Source: Syntrophomonadaceae bacterium (lineage in GTDB: Bacteria; Bacillota; Dethiobacteria; DTU022; UBA8154). From it: a stretch of DNA of 55,807 bases. Every line of letters starts with the position of its first letter. Position 1 is the first letter of the stretch. The stretch covers positions 1 through 55,807 of the forward strand of contig PWRZ01000180.1 of assembly GCA_003563385.1 (NCBI GenBank). The letters run 5' to 3'. Under the pieces are notes generated by a model that saw nothing but the letters and a program-made list of their open reading frames with translations, was not told the DNA's origin and made no database searches. This document shows positions 6,933 through 15,948 of this stretch, piece by piece. The position numbers and the translations under genes are program-made.

Positions 6933-7769
6933 TTAAATTTTGGCAGCTGCCGGAGGGGCAAGGCGCTTTGCGGTTACGTTTATCCTGGCGACCTGGAAGC
7001 CGGTGAGGCTTACTATCTTGCTTTTGACCTCGTCCTGTACCTGCCTGATAATATCGGGCAGGTAAGCGCGCTTGAATTGCAAAACGACCTCCATGTTGAT
7101 GACCATCCCGTTAACGGTGGTCACGATGGAAGTTTTGTAGGCCCTGTGTACTCCTTCCACCTGCTGGGCGACGTGGACCGCGATCTGCTCGATGGCGTGC
7201 TCGGACAGGAAGTAGTTGCCCAGGGAGCTGTAGAGGGGGCGTACTACGGAATACTCGAGGGTTTGGGGGGGGGAGGAGTGGCTTTTGCCCAGGAAAAAAG
7301 CCTTGATCGGGTCCAATATGTAACCGGGGAAGTCCTTTTCAATGGCAAAGGTGGGAATGGGGATGGCGTGGCGGTTTTCCTTTTCCCTTATTCCCAGGGC
7401 CTTGGAGATCTCGCTGGGTCCCGCTATTTCTTCAATCCTGATAATCTCCTCCGGGATGGGAAGCTCAAGACGCTGCACTATCTGTTCGATCATGCGTTCC
7501 GATATGCCGATGACAAGGATCCTGTCGGGAAGCAGTTCCTTGATCTTGTTGCGTACCTGGGAGGCGTGCTCGTGGTCAAGGAAAACGGCCACCTTTGTGG
7601 CCGCCATCCTCGTTTTTTCTCTCTTGGCAGAGCGGCCGGCCAGGACCTGGTTCCCCTTGATGAGCAGCCCGTCATCAATGATATATTTAATTCCAAGGCG
7701 GTAGGCCAGCAGGGCGGAGCGGTGGCTTTTACCGGTACCGCTGCTTCCAACCAGGGCGTACGTTTTCAT
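6933..7769 (-). CDS. P-loop ATPase fused to a C-terminal Asp23/Gls24-like domain
   Basis: The 278-aa product starts with a Walker A loop (ALVGSSGTGKSHRSALL). The nucleotide-binding part runs to roughly residue 165. From about 170 the sequence resembles the Asp23/Gls24 alkaline-shock domain (EQIAVHVAQQVEGV, TSIVTTVNGMVINMEV, IIRQVQDEVKSKI, INVTAKRL). Asp23 proteins are usually small stand-alone envelope-stress proteins, so the fusion to a GTPase/ATPase-like domain is notable. It is transcribed away from the regulator at 7959 and converges on fdhD. GGAGAG precedes the start codon on the minus strand. The 330-aa plus-strand ORF over the same bases is its shadow. Function is unknown; an ATP-driven envelope or stress role is a guess. 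Confidence 0.82.
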   Translation of the reverse strand: MKTYALVGSSGTGKSHRSALLAYRLGIKYIIDDGLLIKGNQVLAGRSAKREKTRMAATKVAVFLDHEHASQVRNKIKELLPDRILVIGISERMIEQIVQRLELPIPEEIIRIEEIAGPSEISKALGIREKENRHAIPIPTFAIEKDFPGYILDPIKAFFLGKSHSSPPQTLEYSVVRPLYSSLGNYFLSEHAIEQIAVHVAQQVEGVHRAYKTSIVTTVNGMVINMEVVLQFKRAYLPDIIRQVQDEVKSKIVSLTGFQVARINVTAKRLAPPAAAKI

Positions 7770-7795: not shown

Positions 7796-7825
7796 AGTAT
7801 ATCATAACCAACCGCTGTTTGTCGA
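7796..7825 (-). promoter_or_regulatory. Probable sigma-A promoter of the Asp23-domain ATPase gene
   Basis: Read on the minus strand, TCGACA (-35, 7820-7825) and TATACT (-10, 7796-7801) are separated by 18 bases. Each box differs from consensus at one position. They lie about 30 bases upstream of the minus-strand start codon at 7769, in an AT-rich divergent intergenic region. Confidence 0.55.
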
Positions 7826-7958
7826 CTTCATTATAATTTCTAATATAATTTTAAAAAAAATAATCTTCCCAGGCAGGATTTCCTTCTAATTTTTACGAAT
7901 ATTCTAAGGTGAGAAAAGATGAGAAAAGAGTATCCAGTGGAGGGAGGCTAAAAGGATT

Positions 7959-9659
7959 GTGGTAACAAAAGTAGCCTTAATTACCGAAGGAGAAAGCGGA
8001 TACTCTGCATTTAAAGTTCTAAGAGAAATGGAAGAGCAGGTGTCAATTGCGGGCATAGCCGATATAAAGGGGGATTTTTCCTGGCTCAAGCAGACCGAGA
8101 AAAGGCGGTACTTTGCCACCAATGACCTGGCCAAGCTTCTTTCTCTGGCAGACATTGATGTCGTACTGAACACTGTCGGCTCTGAAGAGGTGAGACGTTT
8201 GTTAAATGAGCTGAAGGCCCCCTCGGTGGACGTTTTGGAAGCCGGTCCCGGAAGTCTTTTGACGACTCTCCTGGAATCGAAGGAAGATCTCCTGGAAGCG
8301 AAGAGGTTGAAGGGTGAGCTGTGGACCGTCCTTAATTCGGTGCAGGAGGCCATTGAGGTGGCCGACAACAGCGGTGTGATCAAGTATGTAAACCCTGCCT
8401 TTACCAGGGTGACCGGCATTATGGAAAAAGACCGGGTTGGCAGGAACATATTCGAAGTATCCCCGCAGGGGGCACTGGCCCAGGCCCTTATCAGGCAGAA
8501 ACCGGTCACCGGCTACCGCACTACCGTCGGGGGCTCCGATGTGGAGGTTATTTCAAATGCTGTCCCCATCATGGTGGAGGGCGAGGTTGAAGGAGCGGTT
8601 GTCGTCTTTCAGCTGGTAACGGATATTTTGAAGCTGGTAGACGAGCTACAGAAAAGCAATGTTGTCATCGAGAACCTCTACGACCGTATTGACCAGATAA
8701 CCGGCAGCAAGTTTACTTTTAATGATATTATCGGTGGAAGCAAGGTGTTTAAAGCGGTCGTCGATATGGCCAGGCAGGCGGCCAAAAGCGATTCCCCTGT
8801 GCTGATAACAGGTGAAAGCGGTACCGGCAAGGAGATGTTTGCGCACGCCATTCACCATGCCAGCTCCCGCTACAGGCGCCCGCTGATCAAAGTGGACTGT
8901 TCGGCCCTTCCCGACTCCATGCTGGAGCTGGAGATATACGGGTATGAAAAAGGGGCTTTCTGCGGGGCCATGCGCACGAAAATGGGCAGAGTTGAGCTCG
9001 CCGACAAGGGCACTCTCCTGCTCGACAACCTCGGGGAAATGAACCTCAACTTCCAGGAGAAGCTGGTAAACTTCATTCGCGAAATGCAGTTCAGGCGCAC
9101 TGGCGGTAAAGAAACGATCAAGGTTAACGTGCGCGTTATCGCCACGACCTCGCAGAACTTGAAGAGCCTGGTGCAGCGCGGGCGTTTCCGTGAGGATCTT
9201 TACTTCCAACTGCAGGTAATAGACCTTAAGATACCCTCGCTGAGACGGCGCCTTGAAGATGTCCCCCTGCTCGTGAACAGCTTCATAGAGAAATATAACC
9301 GCAAGCTGGGCAAAAATGTGCAGGGTGTATCTTCGGAAGCGATGCAGATGCTCACCAACTACGAGTGGCCCGGCAATGTTAAAGAGCTGGAGTTTGTCGT
9401 TGAAAGGGCCATGGTTCTTGCCGACGGCACCAGGATTGAAAAAGAACAGCTGGCCCCCTATATCGCCCGCTTTACGAGCATGGGCATGCCCAATATCGGC
9501 GAGATTATCCCGCTGGAGAAGATGGAGCAGATGATGCTGAAGACCGCCCTAACCCGTTACGGGGAAACGCTTGAAGGCAAGAAAAAAGCAGCTCATTCCC
9601 TGAACATTTCCCTGTCTACTCTCTACAACAAGATAAAAAAATACAAGGCCAACCTGTAG
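7959..9659 (+). CDS. PAS-domain regulator of the sigma-54 activator (AAA+) family, altered catalytic motifs
   Basis: The 566-aa protein has four parts. Residues 1-110 resemble a Rossmann-like sensor domain (KVALITEGESGYSAFKVL, IAGIADI, DIDVVLNTVG). A PAS domain follows (VLNSVQEAIEVADNSGVIKYVNPAFTRVTG). The AAA+ domain runs from about 255 to 480, with Walker A GESGTGKE near 285. A Fis-type helix-turn-helix ends the protein (AAHSLNISLSTLYNKIKKY). Three key motifs deviate: GAFTGA is GAFCGA (about 333), Walker B LDE is LDN, and the second arginine finger in FREDLYxRL is glutamine (FREDLYFQL). It lies directly upstream of the succinyl-CoA/methylmalonyl-CoA genes, as a PAS regulator does in the Pelotomaculum propionate cluster, and probably controls them. 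GTG start after GGAGGG. Confidence 0.9.
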   Translation: MVTKVALITEGESGYSAFKVLREMEEQVSIAGIADIKGDFSWLKQTEKRRYFATNDLAKLLSLADIDVVLNTVGSEEVRRLLNELKAPSVDVLEAGPGSLLTTLLESKEDLLEAKRLKGELWTVLNSVQEAIEVADNSGVIKYVNPAFTRVTGIMEKDRVGRNIFEVSPQGALAQALIRQKPVTGYRTTVGGSDVEVISNAVPIMVEGEVEGAVVVFQLVTDILKLVDELQKSNVVIENLYDRIDQITGSKFTFNDIIGGSKVFKAVVDMARQAAKSDSPVLITGESGTGKEMFAHAIHHASSRYRRPLIKVDCSALPDSMLELEIYGYEKGAFCGAMRTKMGRVELADKGTLLLDNLGEMNLNFQEKLVNFIREMQFRRTGGKETIKVNVRVIATTSQNLKSLVQRGRFREDLYFQLQVIDLKIPSLRRRLEDVPLLVNSFIEKYNRKLGKNVQGVSSEAMQMLTNYEWPGNVKELEFVVERAMVLADGTRIEKEQLAPYIARFTSMGMPNIGEIIPLEKMEQMMLKTALTRYGETLEGKKKAAHSLNISLSTLYNKIKKYKANL

Positions 9660-9777
9660 TTAAAAGGTTTAACAGGTGGACTTTCCGCTCAAACACCGTC
9701 CAGGCTTTTTAAGAGGCGGCGGTTTGCTTGGCTGTCCCCGTTAGAGGAAACAGATAAACGGAGGTGAGTGTAAGTAA

Positions 9778-10884
9778 ATGAAGTTGTATGAGTTTATGGG
9801 TAAAGAACTTTTTGCCAGCTACGGGATACCAACACCTGAAGGGAGGGTTGCCAAAAATCCCGCGGAAGCGGCAGAAGCAGCGGAACAGATCGGCTCGGTT
9901 GTTATCAAATCACAGGTTTTGACCGGGAAGCGCGGGAAAGCCGGGGGTATCGCCTTTGTCGATAACCCTCAGGAGGCCGGGAAAGAAGCGGAAAGGATCC
10001 TGGACATGGAGATCGGCGGTTTTAAAGTGGAGCACCTGCTCATAGAGAGCAAGCTGCAGATCGACCAGGAGTATTACCTGGCCATTACCATTGACAACTC
10101 CCTGCGCTGTCCTGTTATCCTTGCTTCCACCCAGGGAGGCATGGACATCGAGGAGGTCCCCGAAGAGTATATTGTAAAGTATCCCATAGATGTAGCAATT
10201 GGGATGCAGCCGTTTATGATCAGGGAGGTGGCCCGCCAGCTGGGCCTGACCGGAGAACTGGGCAAGCAGTTTGCATCAATTTTGGGCAGGCTTTACAGGG
10301 CTTTTAAAGATAGGGACGCCGAGCTGGTGGAGATCAACCCCTTAATTGTAAGCGGAGACAGTTTTATTGCTGCCGATGCCAAGGTCACCATCGACGACGA
10401 TGCCCTCTTCAGGCACAAGGACCTGCCCAGGGTGGAAGAAAAGACGGATCTGGAGAAACGCGCTGGTGACCTGGGGCTTGCCTACGTGGAACTGGATGGC
10501 GATATCGCCGTCATGGCCAACGGTGCCGGTATGGCCATGGCTACGCTGGATATGATCAATTATTACGGCGGCAGCCCGGCAAATTTCCTTGACGCCGGGG
10601 GAGGGGCCGGGGTAGAGCAGACCGCGCAGGCACTGGAGCTGCTGCTGGCCACTGAACCAAAGGCAATCCTGATCAACATTTTTGGAGGGATAACCCGCTG
10701 CGATGACGTGGCCAACGCCTTTGCCACGGTTAAGAAAAACAAGGAAATAACCATGCCGGTGGTTTTCAGGCTGGTAGGGACGAACGAAGAAGAAGGAAGA
10801 AAAATTCTGGATGATATAGGGATAATTGCTTATAAAACGATGCAGGAGACCGCACAGAAGGCTGTAGAACTTTCCAAACAGTAA
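9778..10884 (+). CDS. sucC: Succinyl-CoA synthetase beta subunit (ADP-forming type)
   Basis: An ATP-grasp succinyl-CoA synthetase beta subunit of 368 aa (family length about 370-390). Recognisable elements are MKLYEFMGKELFASYGIP at the N-terminus, KSQVLTGKRGKAGGI, LVEINPLIV and NIFGGITRCDDVA near the C-terminus, where the nucleotide and CoA-ligase interface lies. The enzyme couples succinyl-CoA cleavage to ADP/GDP phosphorylation, a substrate-level ATP step. The start ATG 9778 follows CGGAGGTGAG. It forms an operon with sucD and the methylmalonyl-CoA mutase genes. Confidence 0.95.
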   Translation: MKLYEFMGKELFASYGIPTPEGRVAKNPAEAAEAAEQIGSVVIKSQVLTGKRGKAGGIAFVDNPQEAGKEAERILDMEIGGFKVEHLLIESKLQIDQEYYLAITIDNSLRCPVILASTQGGMDIEEVPEEYIVKYPIDVAIGMQPFMIREVARQLGLTGELGKQFASILGRLYRAFKDRDAELVEINPLIVSGDSFIAADAKVTIDDDALFRHKDLPRVEEKTDLEKRAGDLGLAYVELDGDIAVMANGAGMAMATLDMINYYGGSPANFLDAGGGAGVEQTAQALELLLATEPKAILINIFGGITRCDDVANAFATVKKNKEITMPVVFRLVGTNEEEGRKILDDIGIIAYKTMQETAQKAVELSKQ

Positions 10885-10950
10885 AATTACTAAAAGAAAG
10901 GAGGTGTAGGCCCGTTTCTATAAGATAAGCTGATAGAAATGGGGCTGGTA

Positions 10951-11820
10951 ATGGCAATTTTTATCGATGAGAAAACAAGGGTCATGGTGCAGGGTATAAC
11001 CGGCAACCAGGGTTCTTTCCACGCCCGCCAGATGCTCGCCTACGGCAGCAATATTGTGGCTGGGGTTTCACCGGGCAAAGGAGGCCGGGAGGTTGAAAAC
11101 GTCCCCGTTTTCGATACCGCTGAGGCCGCAGTTGCAGCACAGGAGCCCGATGCTTCTATCCTGTTTGTGCCCGCTGCTTTTGCCAAGGATGGTGCGCTGG
11201 AAGCGCTTAGCGCAGGTATGAAAGTAATTGTCATGATTACAGAGGGCATTCCGGTACACGATGCCATGGAGGTTATAGACTATGCCAACCGCAAAAACGC
11301 CGTTGTCGTGGGACCGAACACTTTCGGCATCGTTTCTTCCAATAAATGCAAGATTGGGATCATGCCCAACCAGATCTACGTAGGAGGGCCCATCGGTGTT
11401 GTCGCCCGCAGCGGCACCCTCAGCTACGAGATCGTCGCCAACCTCAAAGAAGCCGGGTACGGTACATCCACGGTGGTGGGTATGGGAGGAGACAGGATTC
11501 TCGGCTTAAATTTTATCAATGTCCTTGAAGAGTTTGAAAAAGACAGTCAGACAGAGCTGATAGTCATGGTTGGCGAAATCGGCGGTACCGCTGAAGAGGA
11601 AGCGGCAGAATACATCAAAAATAATGTCAGCAAACCTGTAATTGCCTACCTGGCCGGGAAAAGCGCCCCACCGGGCAAAAGGATGGGCCATGCCGGTGCC
11701 ATCATTGAACGTGGAAAGGGCACTTTCGACGGCAAGGTAAAGGCCCTGGAGGCCGTAGGGGTAAAAGTGGCAGAGCTTCCTTTCCAGGTCCCCGAGATGG
11801 CAAAGGAAATTTTGCGGTGA
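10951..11820 (+). CDS. sucD: Succinyl-CoA synthetase alpha subunit
   Basis: The alpha subunit binds CoA and carries the phosphohistidine. The CoA-binding region (VMVQGITGNQGSFHARQMLAYG) and the phospho-His site (GKRMGHAGAII) are both present. The track starts at ATG 10939 (MGLVMAIF). The family normally begins MAIFIDxxTR, so ATG 10951 is preferred (289 aa). The only strong ribosome site (AAAGGAGGTG, about 10898) lies 40 or more bases upstream of either start, so initiation here is less well supported than for neighbouring genes. It pairs with sucC. Confidence 0.94.
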   Translation: MAIFIDEKTRVMVQGITGNQGSFHARQMLAYGSNIVAGVSPGKGGREVENVPVFDTAEAAVAAQEPDASILFVPAAFAKDGALEALSAGMKVIVMITEGIPVHDAMEVIDYANRKNAVVVGPNTFGIVSSNKCKIGIMPNQIYVGGPIGVVARSGTLSYEIVANLKEAGYGTSTVVGMGGDRILGLNFINVLEEFEKDSQTELIVMVGEIGGTAEEEAAEYIKNNVSKPVIAYLAGKSAPPGKRMGHAGAIIERGKGTFDGKVKALEAVGVKVAELPFQVPEMAKEILR

Positions 11821-11863
11821 GAATTAACGGTATCGACAATTCTTATGCAAGGGAGGAGAGTTT

Positions 11864-13540
11864 GTGTTTGACAAGAATAAATTAGCGGAACTGAAGGAAA
11901 AAAAAGCCGCCTGGAAGAAGTCCCTGGAGAAGTCCCTGGAAAAAAGGCCGGAGCGCAAAGAGAAATTTGAAACAGACTCCAAGATACCCGTGGAACCAAC
12001 GTATACGCCAGTGGAACTGGAAGATTTTGATTACCTCCAAGACCTGGGACTTCCGGGCGAATACCCCTTTACAAGGGGTGTGCAGCCCAACATGTACCGC
12101 GGGCGCTTTTTTACCATGCGCCAGTATGCCGGCTTCGGCAGCGCCGAGGAGACCAACAAGCGTTTTCGCTACCTCCTCGAACAGGGCCAGACCGGGCTCA
12201 GCATTGCTTTCGACCTTCCCACCCAGATCGGCTTTGACTCGGACCATCCCCTGGCCAGGGGCGAGGTTGGCAAGGTCGGGGTAGCCATTGATTCACTGCA
12301 GGACATGGAAGACCTTTTCACCGGTATTCCCCTGGACAAGGTGACCACCTCCATGACTATCAACTCCCCGGCAGCGGTAATAATGGCCATGTACCTGGCC
12401 ATGGCCGAGAAGCAGGGCATCCCCTTTGACAAGCTGGGGGGGACCATCCAGAACGACATCCTCAAAGAATATGTAGCCAGGGGCACATACATTTTCCCGC
12501 CAGAACCTTCCATGAAGCTAATTACCGATATATTTGCCTACTGCGGGGAACATGTCCCCATGTGGAACACCATCAGTATTAGTGGCTACCATATCAGGGA
12601 GGCCGGCTCCACTGCCGTGCAGGAAATAGCCTTTACCCTGGCCAACGGTATCGCCTACGTGGAAGCGGCAATCAAAGCGGGGCTTGATGTTGACGGATTC
12701 GGCCCGAGGCTGTCCTTTTTCTTCAACGCCCACCAGAACTTTTTTGAAGAGATTGCCAAGTTCCGTGCTGCAAGGAGAGTATGGGCCCGTATCATGAAGG
12801 AACGCTTCGAGGCGAAAAACCCGCGCTCGCAGATGCTGCGCTTCCATACCCAGACGGCCGGATGCAGCCTGACGGCCCAGCAGCCCATGGTGAACATCAT
12901 GAGGGTTGCTTTTCAGGCTCTCAGCGCCTGCCTGGGAGGAACCCAGTCCCTGCACACCAATTCCTACGACGAGGCGCTGGCACTGCCCAGTGAGCATGCA
13001 GTTTCCCTGGCGCTGCGCACCCAGCAGGTTGTCGCTTACGAGATCGGCATAACCGATACGGCGGATCCCCTCGGTGGTTCATACTTTATCGAAAAATTGA
13101 CCGACCAGATCGAAGAGCAGGTTATGAATTACATCAACCGCATTGATGAGATCGGCGGAGCGGCCAAGGCCATCGAACAGGGCTTCATGCAGAAGGAGAT
13201 CCAGCAGAGCGCCTACGAGTACCAGAAGGAAGTGGAAGAGGACAAGAGAACCGTTATCGGTGTGAACAAGTTCGTTACCGAGTACGAAGAGCCTACCGGC
13301 CTGCTCAGGGTAGACCCCACGGTAACTGAACGCCAGGTGGAAAAGCTGGAGAAAAAGCGCCAGGAAAGAGACGGCAAGAAAGTGGCCGAAGCGCTGAAAG
13401 AGCTGCGCAGTGTAGCCCAGACAAATGAAAACCTGATGCCTGTTATCCTGGAAGCGGTTAAAGCTTATGCCACTGTAGGTGAAATTTGCGGAGTGCTCAG
13501 GGAAGTATATGGTGAATTCCAGCAGCAGGTGCTGCTCTAA
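11864..13540 (+). CDS. Methylmalonyl-CoA mutase, large (catalytic) subunit
   Basis: This 558-aa TIM-barrel catalytic subunit of adenosylcobalamin-dependent methylmalonyl-CoA mutase isomerises succinyl-CoA and (R)-methylmalonyl-CoA. The substrate-channel signature is clear ([33 protein letters not shown], quoted in part), as are [49 protein letters not shown] and [12 protein letters not shown]. It lacks the cobalamin-binding domain, which is supplied by the separate next gene. Residues 1-45 form a charged Lys/Glu-rich extension. GTG 11864 follows GGGAGGAG. The short form could in principle be another acyl-CoA mutase, but the adjacent epimerase and carboxyltransferase favour methylmalonyl-CoA. 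Confidence 0.94.
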
Positions 13541-13569
13541 AAGCCTGGTGGGAAAGGAGCGTAAAAAGA

Positions 13570-13965
13570 ATGTCTGAGAAGATCATTAGAGTTCTAGTTG
13601 CCAAGATCGGGTTAGATGGACATGATCGCGGGGCCAAGGTTATTGCCCAGGCCTTAAAGGATGCCGGCATGGAAGTTATATATACGGGTTTGAGGCAGAC
13701 CCCGGAGAGTATCGTGGAAACAGCTATCCAGGAAGATGTCCAGGTTATCGGTATGAGTATTCTTTCCGGAGCCCACATGCAGCTCTTGCCGCCAGTCACG
13801 GAGTACTTACGCAACCAGGGAGCCGGTGATATCCTGGTGGTTTCCGGTGGGGTCATCCCCAAGGATGATATACCGTTCCTCAAGGAAGCGGGGATTGCCG
13901 AAGTTTTTACCCCGGGAACTTCTACCGTGGATATTATTAAATTTATTAAAGATAATGTGTCTTAA
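13570..13965 (+). CDS. Methylmalonyl-CoA mutase, small cobalamin-binding subunit
   Basis: A 131-aa stand-alone B12-binding domain. It shows the base-off/His-on signature DGHDRGAK (DxHxxG), then SILSGAH (SxL) and [11 protein letters not shown] (GG), in the usual order. It joins the preceding 558-aa subunit to make a two-gene mutase. Spacing to the large-subunit gene is 29 bases, with GGAAAGGAG in the gap. Adenosylcobalamin needed here would come from the cobO product at 54.5 kb, and MeaB would guard the holoenzyme. Confidence 0.95.
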
Positions 13966-13986
13966 AGAAAGGAGAGAAGGTCCAAA

Positions 13987-14391
13987 ATGTTGAAGAAGAT
14001 CGATCACATCGGCATAGCTGTTAAGAACCTGGACGAAGCTTTGAAATTTTATGAGGAAAAACTGGGTCTGAAGGCTACCGGCACGGAAGTAGTGGAGGAG
14101 CAGAAAGTTAGAATTGCTTTCCTGCCTTTAGGAGAGAGCAAGCTGGAGCTTCTGGAGTCTACCGACCCCGAAGGCCCCGTGGCCAAGTTTATCGAGTCGC
14201 GCGGTGAAGGTGTGCAGCATATTGCCCTTCGTGTGGACAATGTCGAAGAGAAGGTTAAAGAGCTGGAGGAGCAAGGAGTACGCCTGATTGATAAAACTCC
14301 CCGTTATGGTGCCGGGGGCGCCCGTATTGCTTTCCTGCACCCCAAATCTACTTACGGAATCCTGTTAGAACTCTGCCAGAGGGATGAATAG
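13987..14391 (+). CDS. mce: Methylmalonyl-CoA epimerase
   Basis: A 134-aa vicinal-oxygen-chelate protein that interconverts (R)- and (S)-methylmalonyl-CoA. The N-terminal metal ligand lies in KIDHIGIAVKNLDEALKFYE. Further hallmarks are LLESTDPEGPVAKFIESRGEG, QHIALRVDN and the C-terminal PKSTYGILLELCQ. Length is normal. It is 21 bases after the mutase small subunit and 15 before the carboxyltransferase, so all are in one operon. Confidence 0.95.
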   Translation: MLKKIDHIGIAVKNLDEALKFYEEKLGLKATGTEVVEEQKVRIAFLPLGESKLELLESTDPEGPVAKFIESRGEGVQHIALRVDNVEEKVKELEEQGVRLIDKTPRYGAGGARIAFLHPKSTYGILLELCQRDE

Positions 14392-14406
14392 GAGGTGCCA
14401 TAAATA

Positions 14407-15948
14407 GTGGAAGACAAGTTAAACTTTTTACAGCAGAGAAGGGAAATAATACTCAAGGGCGGTGGAGACAAAAGGATTGCCGCCCAGCACGAAAAAGGAA
14501 AGCTGACCGCCAGGGAAAGGCTGGAGCAGATGCTGGACCCCGGAAGCTTCGTAGAGGTGGGTACTTTTTCGCAGTCCGGGCTGGAGGATGCCAGCACGCT
14601 CGATATCCCCTATCCCGGTGAAGGTGTAGTAACCGGCTATGGAACAATGGACGGGCGCAAGGTTTACGTCTTCGCCCAGGACTTTACCGTTGCCGGCGGT
14701 TCACTGGGAGAGATGCATGCCGCCAAGATCTGCCGGGTGATGGACCTTGCCGCCAAGAACGGTGCTCCTTTTATCGGGCTTAACGATTCAGGGGGAGCGC
14801 GTATCCAAGAAGGGGTGCTGTCCCTGGATGGTTATGGCAACATCTTTTACCGCAACACTGTTTTTTCGGGCGTTATCCCACAAATATCGGTTATTATGGG
14901 TCCCTGTGCCGGGGGTGCAGTCTACTCGCCGGCCCTGACCGACTTTATTTTCATGGTTGACAAGAGCAGCTACATGTTTATCACCGGTACCCAGGTAATA
15001 AAGGCTGTTACCGGGGAAGATGTGAGCCCGGAGAAGCTCGGCGGTGCCAAGACCCATAACGAAACCAGCGGTGTGGCACATTTCCTGGCTGCCGACGAGC
15101 AGGAGTGCATCAACATGATCAAGAAACTGATCGGCTTCCTGCCTTCCAACAACCTGGACGACCCGCCCGTTGCTGCTCCTGCCGAGCCCACCCTTCCCGC
15201 CGAGGACCTGCTTACCCTGGTACCCCCTGACCCGAACAGGCCTTATGACGTGGTAGATGTCATTACCAGGATCGTCGACGGCAGTGATTTCTTCCAGGTG
15301 CACGAGCATTATGCCAAGAATGCCGTCGTCGGTTTTGCGCGCATAAACGGTCAGCCGGTCGGGATTATCGCCAACCAGCCGAAGGCCCTGGCCGGGTGCC
15401 TGGATATTAACAGCTCCGATAAAATATCCCGTTTTGTAAGGTTCTGTGACTGCTTCAATCTTCCCATGATAACATTTGTCGATGTTCCCGGCTACCTTCC
15501 CGGGGTAAACCAGGAGTACGGCGGTATCATCCGCCACGGAGCCAAGATACTGTACGCCTACTCCGAGGCAAGTGTCCCGCAGATCAGCATCATCCTGCGC
15601 AAGGCATACGGCGGTGCCTACATCGCCATGAACGGGCGCTGCCTGGGAGCCGATTATGCCTACGCCTGGCCGACTGCGGAGATAGCGGTGATGGGCCCCG
15701 AGGGCGCTACCAATGTCATTTTCCGCAAGGAAATTGATAAAGCGGAAAATCCGGAAGAGGAGAGGAAAAAGAGGGTCGAGGAATACCGCCACCGCTTTGC
15801 CAATCCTTACATTACCGCTGCCAAGGGCTGGATAGATGACGTCATTGACCCGCGCCATACGCGCGAGCTGCTCATCAAGGGTCTGGAGGCACTGAAAGGA
15901 AAGTATGAGGATAGACCGCGCAAGAAGCACGGGAACTTCCCTGTATAG
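14407..15948 (+). CDS. mmdA: Methylmalonyl-CoA/propionyl-CoA carboxyltransferase subunit (MmdA/PccB type)
   Basis: A 513-aa carboxyltransferase with two crotonase-like halves. Visible motifs are KLTARERLEQMLDPGSF, DFTVAGGSLGEMHAAKI, FIGLNDSGGARIQEGV, MGPCAGGAVYSPALTDF and FVDVPGYLPGV. It moves a carboxyl group between methylmalonyl-CoA and carboxybiotin. It could be part of a sodium-pumping decarboxylase, a transcarboxylase or a propionyl-CoA carboxylase. No biotin carrier or partner subunit is encoded in this window, so the complex type is open. GTG 14407 follows TAGGAGGTG. It is the last gene of the cluster, and a strong terminator follows. Confidence 0.93.
   Translation: MEDKLNFLQQRREIILKGGGDKRIAAQHEKGKLTARERLEQMLDPGSFVEVGTFSQSGLEDASTLDIPYPGEGVVTGYGTMDGRKVYVFAQDFTVAGGSLGEMHAAKICRVMDLAAKNGAPFIGLNDSGGARIQEGVLSLDGYGNIFYRNTVFSGVIPQISVIMGPCAGGAVYSPALTDFIFMVDKSSYMFITGTQVIKAVTGEDVSPEKLGGAKTHNETSGVAHFLAADEQECINMIKKLIGFLPSNNLDDPPVAAPAEPTLPAEDLLTLVPPDPNRPYDVVDVITRIVDGSDFFQVHEHYAKNAVVGFARINGQPVGIIANQPKALAGCLDINSSDKISRFVRFCDCFNLPMITFVDVPGYLPGVNQEYGGIIRHGAKILYAYSEASVPQISIILRKAYGGAYIAMNGRCLGADYAYAWPTAEIAVMGPEGATNVIFRKEIDKAENPEEERKKRVEEYRHRFANPYITAAKGWIDDVIDPRHTRELLIKGLEALKGKYEDRPRKKHGNFPV

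Follow-up and report, generated by a model that had tools for sequence, protein, structure and literature searches.

Progressive decay of sigma-54 activator motifs in a regulator at a methylmalonyl-CoA operon points to control without sigma-54

We believe that the regulator encoded directly upstream of a methylmalonyl-CoA operon in a Syntrophomonadaceae bacterium probably began as a sigma-54 enhancer-binding protein and today acts independently of sigma-54, regulating its own gene and carrying an AAA+ core that would no longer hydrolyse ATP. By sequence the protein descends from intact enhancer-binding proteins that occur at the same operon, at least six of the residues required for hydrolysing ATP or contacting sigma-54 are gone from it, and its Walker A motif, PAS domain and helix-turn-helix (HTH) have been kept under strong purifying selection. 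The gene lies on a stretch of 55,807 nucleotides (GenBank assembly GCA_003563385.1, contig PWRZ01000180.1, positions 1 to 55,807), the whole of which we refer to as the window. The original prediction, that this operon is regulated without sigma-54 remodelling, finds strong support in the shared and progressive loss of motifs among orthologues, the reduction of rpoN to a remnant, the lack of any other activator in the genome and the disappearance of the -24/-12 promoter.

Results

Domains and motifs of the regulator

The features of the locus are collected in Table 1. The AAA+ domain is matched by PF00158 at 202 bits (E 6.8e-60, 10 times the cut-off), and its fold matches NtrC1 (TM 0.96 to target). 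The three changes first noted in this domain, namely the GAFCGA loop, the LLLDNLGE Walker B and the glutamine at the second arginine finger, are all present in the translation of 7959-9659, and the Walker A motif and the first arginine are intact as claimed. Beyond these three, the switch asparagine, the sensor-1 asparagine and the sensor-2 arginine have also been lost; the roles of the Walker B glutamate, switch asparagine, arginine fingers, sensors and GAFTGA loop have been reviewed (PMC7175178). On sequence grounds, the simplest reading is that the core is a nucleotide-binding, oligomer-forming pseudo-ATPase. The invariance of Walker A and the purifying selection on the domain suggest that the regulator may act through nucleotide binding.

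Table 1. Coordinates of the regulator, its motifs and the flanking elements in the window
Feature	Position	Strand	Residues	Remarks
Conserved single-copy element, candidate promoter and operator	7872-7909	+		
Sigma-H-type -35, GCAGGATTT	7873-7881	+		
28-bp imperfect palindrome, CCTTCTAATTTTTACGAATATTCTAAGG	7882-7909	+		Covers spacer and -10 region
Sigma-H-type -10, TACGAATAT	7894-7902	+		
Regulator gene	7959-9659	+	566 aa	Rossmann-like N-terminus, PAS, AAA+ (predicted pseudo-ATPase), lid, Fis-type HTH
Rossmann-like N-terminal domain	7959-8288	+		AlphaFold model, pLDDT 85.9; PDB matches; alignment
PAS domain	8310-8624	+	118-222	Among the two most conserved domains across the orthologue family
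AAA+ domain			257-428	
Lid			429-504	
Walker A, GESGTGK	8811-8831	+	285-291	Intact
Switch Asn to Asp	8895-8897	+	313	Alignment
Loop 1, GAFTGA to GAFCGA	8952-8969	+	332-337	Translation, alignment
Walker B, LLLDNLGE, catalytic Glu to Asn357	9015-9038	+	353-360	Translation, alignment
Sensor-1 Asn to Ser	9150-9152	+	398	Alignment
Arginine-finger segment, FREDLYFQL	9186-9212	+	410-418	First Arg kept, second to Gln417
Sensor-2 Arg to Lys	9381-9383	+	475	Alignment
Fis-type HTH	9513-9644	+	519-562	About 90% identity inside the window's clade
Gap between regulator and sucC, 118 bp	9660-9777	+		No -24/-12 sigma-54 promoter
Operon: sucC, sucD, methylmalonyl-CoA mutase large and small parts, epimerase, methylmalonyl-CoA decarboxylase alpha	9778-15948	+		

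The folds nearest to the N-terminus are those of NAD(P)-dependent homoserine/diaminopimelate dehydrogenases and of Rex, a Foldseek search returning DAP dehydrogenase (E 1.7e-4) and the Rex-family RSP (4.3e-4). The Rossmann-like fold originally proposed for this region is upheld by these PDB matches. The glycine motif GxGxxG is degraded in the window's regulator (ITEGESG, first glycine gone) and throughout its clade, and for this reason NAD sensing by the modelled domain is at most possible. Several relatives that belong to the partial group or have no AAA+ domain (L054, L055, L098 and L105) keep the motif whole.

Adjoining the regulator is a divergent gene (6933-7769, minus strand) whose product has a P-loop at its N-terminus and an Asp23-like segment at its C-terminus. 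The same gene stands beside the regulator in the window's clade, at most of the partially decayed loci described below and at L059, and shared regulation is possible.

Motif loss across orthologues

We found 57 loci in the genome collection. The regulator gene is directly 5' of the sucC-sucD-methylmalonyl-CoA mutase-epimerase-decarboxylase genes, whose enzyme identities were confirmed, in nearly all contigs long enough to judge, and around 40 orthologues, some of them from within the same order, immediately precede this sucCD-methylmalonyl-CoA mutase operon. At the positions changed in the window, the orthologues L021-L023 (72-73% identical) carry GAFSGA, LDN and H or Q, while paralogues in the same family of genomes read GAFTGA, LDE and YRL. 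Alignment with orthologues thus revealed changes that are common and progressive at one locus, and because they are common to orthologues, chance and sequencing error are both ruled out as their source. Orthologues with intact motifs, which had been named as a possible objection to the original prediction, do exist, but they are distant and not close ones, and there is no sign of sequencing error.

The motifs form a graded series. They are fully intact in eight orthologues (L056, L077, L078, L085, L086, L089, L092 and L095) and partly lost in six, of which L055 and L098 lack only the switch asparagine, L091 lacks the second arginine finger as well, and L054, L057 and L058 show progressively more loss. 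The window's clade combines GAFSGA or GAFCGA with LDN or LDG, and about 29 fully decayed orthologues have mostly GAMPGI or GALPG as the loop and KEINS as Walker B, with gene and locus retained. The Walker A lysine is kept in all 47 rows of the motif table, whereas every other catalytic residue has been lost at least once. Intact forms are basal and decayed forms nested in a quick orthologue tree whose outgroup is not clean.

A regulator that loses its motifs might simply be heading for a pseudogene, under selection relaxed once its role had gone. Indeed, the identity of the AAA+ domain falls from 77% among intact orthologues, where it is the most conserved domain (PAS 67%), to 62% among decayed ones, where the order is reversed (PAS 79%, HTH 86%). 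Against this, the reading frame is open throughout, Walker A, PAS, HTH and the upstream element are nearly invariant, and dN/dS in close pairs of decayed orthologues is 0.02-0.09 for AAA+ and 0-0.04 for the HTH, so that the AAA+ domain is constrained and not rotting. We therefore give very little credence to decay into a pseudogene.

Relatives of other architectures also occur. Three proteins of 303-306 residues (L104-L106) consist of a Rossmann domain with a whole glycine motif, a PAS domain and a Fis-type HTH, with no AAA+ domain, which shows that such a protein can in principle do without the AAA+ core; the gene for one of them (L105, 9986-10894) is directly 5' of a fumarase gene and near malic enzyme. 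Separately, L100-L103 (for example, L101:9962-10864) are AAA+/HTH relatives of about 300 residues that have neither the loop nor PAS and are unlinked to the methylmalonyl-CoA operon. Independent motif loss (GAFPGA, LYLEDIAG) is seen in L083 and L088, where the operon is without sucCD; neither rpoN nor a copy of the palindromic element described below was found in their genomes (G063 and G066).

Promoters at the locus

Sigma-54 sites were scored with an approximate -24/-12 matrix. A -24/-12 sequence is present in all five of the deepest orthologues (L078, L085, L086, L089 and L095), 181-202 nt past the regulator stop and ahead of the fumarase gene that heads the operon at these loci; the sites (TGGCACATATATTGCA, TGGTATGTATTTTGCA, TGGTATGTATTTTGCG, TGGTACGAATATTGCA and TGGCATATTTATTGCA) score 10.4-17.5 on this approximate matrix. 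No such sequence was found in the regulator-operon gap of any other locus, including the motif-intact L056, L077 and L092, and in the window the best score on the same matrix is -0.4 over the 300 nt that follow the regulator gene. The gap has only 30-50 bp at many decayed loci, and apparent matches at about +200 there were discounted since they fall inside the sucC coding sequence.

Upstream of the regulator, a 36-bp element, GCAGGAWTTCTTCTAATATTTACGAATATTCTAAGG, is near-invariant 5' of the start in 31 orthologues, mostly 40-90 nt away. Both of its ends agree with the sigma-H consensus RNAGGAWWW / RNNGAATWW (PMC8510167), with the window's -10 missing the purine of RNNGAATWW, and a sigH gene is present in the window's genome; the element may serve as a promoter for another sigma factor. 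The symmetry of the palindrome extends to 14-20 of its 28 positions in most loci and to 10 in L092. The AGGA-GAAT skeleton is found upstream in 34 of 41 loci, as against 4-11% of background windows. The window's genome has no more than one copy of the element, and the same holds for nearly all of 16 further genomes that were searched, G074 having one extra match at three mismatches; its single copy led us to reject the idea of a dispersed repeat. A sigma-A-like sequence, TCGACT-16-TATAAT (10/12), lies upstream of the element at 7822-7849 on the plus strand and is not obviously conserved in orthologues.

The protein could be independent of sigma-54 and yet act elsewhere, in a global or repressor role, with the element serving only as a sigma-H promoter or as the site of another protein. 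The AGGA-GAAT skeleton does also occur, with a different spacer and no palindrome, 5' of the basal L077, L085, L086 and L095, as that explanation would have it, but there is a single copy of the element, invariably right in front of the regulator gene, and on the tree the palindrome appears only with the switch from sigma-54, which fits a dedicated operator. We regard action elsewhere as unlikely. The element is already present at L056 and L092, both of which have intact protein motifs, which suggests from the sequences that the promoter switch preceded the loss of motifs.

rpoN and sigma-54 partners

The genome of the window (G000; 1.77 Mb, 84.8% complete) was searched for rpoN, as the original prediction had recommended, and only a 3' remnant was present in the assembly; no sigma-54 core-binding domain was found in it. 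The remnant comprises 41 codons, corresponding to residues 445-485 of 485, in a 42-residue frame, and encodes the last 41 residues of the DNA-binding domain. In relatives the gene order is whiA-rpoN-cggR-gap-pgk, and here whiA is followed by about 120 bp, the remnant and cggR. The remnant is located at contig C87:18311-18433 and at the end of contig C59 (L015, L107); the two contigs overlap by 121 bp at the junction, and the longer one by itself runs from the end of whiA through the remnant into cggR. The overlap could also mark strain variation. A PF00158 profile search of the genome found no other enhancer-binding protein, the remaining matches being Lon, ClpB, YifB and RarA-like AAA ATPases, which were rejected as activators. 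Unless rpoN is merely missing from the assembly, the regulator, which is the last protein of its class in this genome, cannot act via sigma-54.

Could the regulator nevertheless be a sigma-54 activator with relaxed motifs, tolerating serine or cysteine in the loop, remodelling weakly on ATP binding, and found in a genome whose rpoN is missing from the assembly only? The genome is 85% complete, and rpoN is intact in its close relatives G005, G009 and G023. The hydrolysis-defective PspF E108Q can engage the holoenzyme on ATP binding alone and still remodels on pre-melted DNA (PMC4132715), so loss of Walker B by itself is no proof of sigma-54 independence. However, six motifs have been lost together and not one, rpoN has been deleted in place and is not simply absent, the genome has no other activator and the operon no -24/-12 site, and farther along the lineage the loop has become GAMPGI and Walker B KEINS with gene and locus kept. 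Taken together, we consider continued activation through sigma-54 distinctly improbable.

Motif decay is not a general result of rpoN loss, as 31 of the 34 genomes reached through other orthologues retain rpoN. Since rpoN persists in most genomes whose orthologue has decayed, its loss from the genome of the window looks like a later event than motif decay. G005 (L023/L052; 79% complete) has an intact rpoN and, as its sole enhancer-binding protein, a degraded regulator, making it a possible next candidate for the loss of sigma-54.

Discussion

Based on these observations, we propose that the HTH of the regulator would bind the palindrome formed by the spacer and -10 of the putative sigma-H-type promoter before its own gene, and would in this way control its own transcription and, by read-through, that of the co-directional methylmalonyl-CoA operon. 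A metabolic or redox signal would enter through the PAS domain, with the Rossmann-like domain as a possible further input. With nucleotide bound, the AAA+ core would keep the oligomer together, and would not hydrolyse ATP for the remodelling of polymerase.

A broader reading, for and against which we consider the chances evenly balanced, is that this orthologous family preserves at one locus every step of the exit of a sigma-54 activator from sigma-54. First, a sigma-H-type site carrying its own palindromic operator would have taken over as the promoter; second, the switch asparagine and the second arginine finger would have been lost; third, Walker B and the loop; and last, in certain genomes, rpoN as well. 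What results would be a nucleotide-binding pseudo-ATPase that regulates the sigma-H-type promoter of a central catabolic operon.

As far as we have searched, several features appear to be new: orthologues graded in motif loss at a single locus, a promoter change that apparently came before the protein change, the putative sigma-H-type promoter, and the disappearance of rpoN from the genome of the window. The escape of a regulator from an obligatory partner is known mostly from isolated end points such as TyrR, HupR and VpsR. In the present family, orthologues that are intact, decayed in part or decayed throughout stand at the same operon in living lineages, and the order of events is directly testable. 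Furthermore, 'sigma-54 activator' labels based on Pfam can mis-state mechanism in syntrophic and related Bacillota, and the proposed model provides a concrete hypothesis for the control of propionate oxidation at its energetic limit.

The mmc (methylmalonyl-CoA) propionate-oxidation cluster of Pelotomaculum thermopropionicum is likewise headed by a regulator gene. Its fumarase-first order resembles the deep loci described here; our literature search found no mechanism for its regulator. Among NCBIfam models, the best match of the window's regulator is the PrdR-type NF041552 (residues 112-563, 389 bits, cut-off 795); PrdR is annotated as sigma-54 dependent, unlike the regulator as we read it. 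The TyrR model NF008085 matches residues 116-563 with 252.8 bits, far under its cut-off of 576.

Relatives of enhancer-binding proteins that are independent of sigma-54 are known and include TyrR, DhaR, HupR and VpsR (PMC3162934) as well as the NtrC proteins of Caulobacter and Rhodobacter (PMC10274813). Judged by its motifs, the window's regulator belongs with the TyrR, HupR and VpsR kind, that is, the AAA+ proteins without the canonical GAFTGA loop, although GAFSGA and GAFCGA are milder changes than those in TyrR-like proteins. With TyrR/PhhR of E. coli and Pseudomonas, which use the main sigma factor (PMC3162934), it shares the PAS-AAA+-Fis HTH layout, enhancer-binding ancestry and loss of the GAFTGA contact; unlike TyrR, it has a Rossmann-like N-terminus, stands at another operon and has intact orthologues at the same locus. 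HupR/NtrC of Rhodobacter capsulatus, Caulobacter NtrC and Vibrio VpsR similarly have an AAA+ domain without GAFTGA and control sigma-70 promoters, and R. capsulatus NtrC needs ATP binding and not hydrolysis (PMC10274813). In contrast to the present family, these are response-regulator proteins, several with loop deletions, whereas here the substitutions are gradual and the sensor is a PAS and a Rossmann-like domain. Finally, the preference for proline at the fourth loop position that a 2011 survey described (PMC3162934) is shared by the decayed orthologues at this locus.
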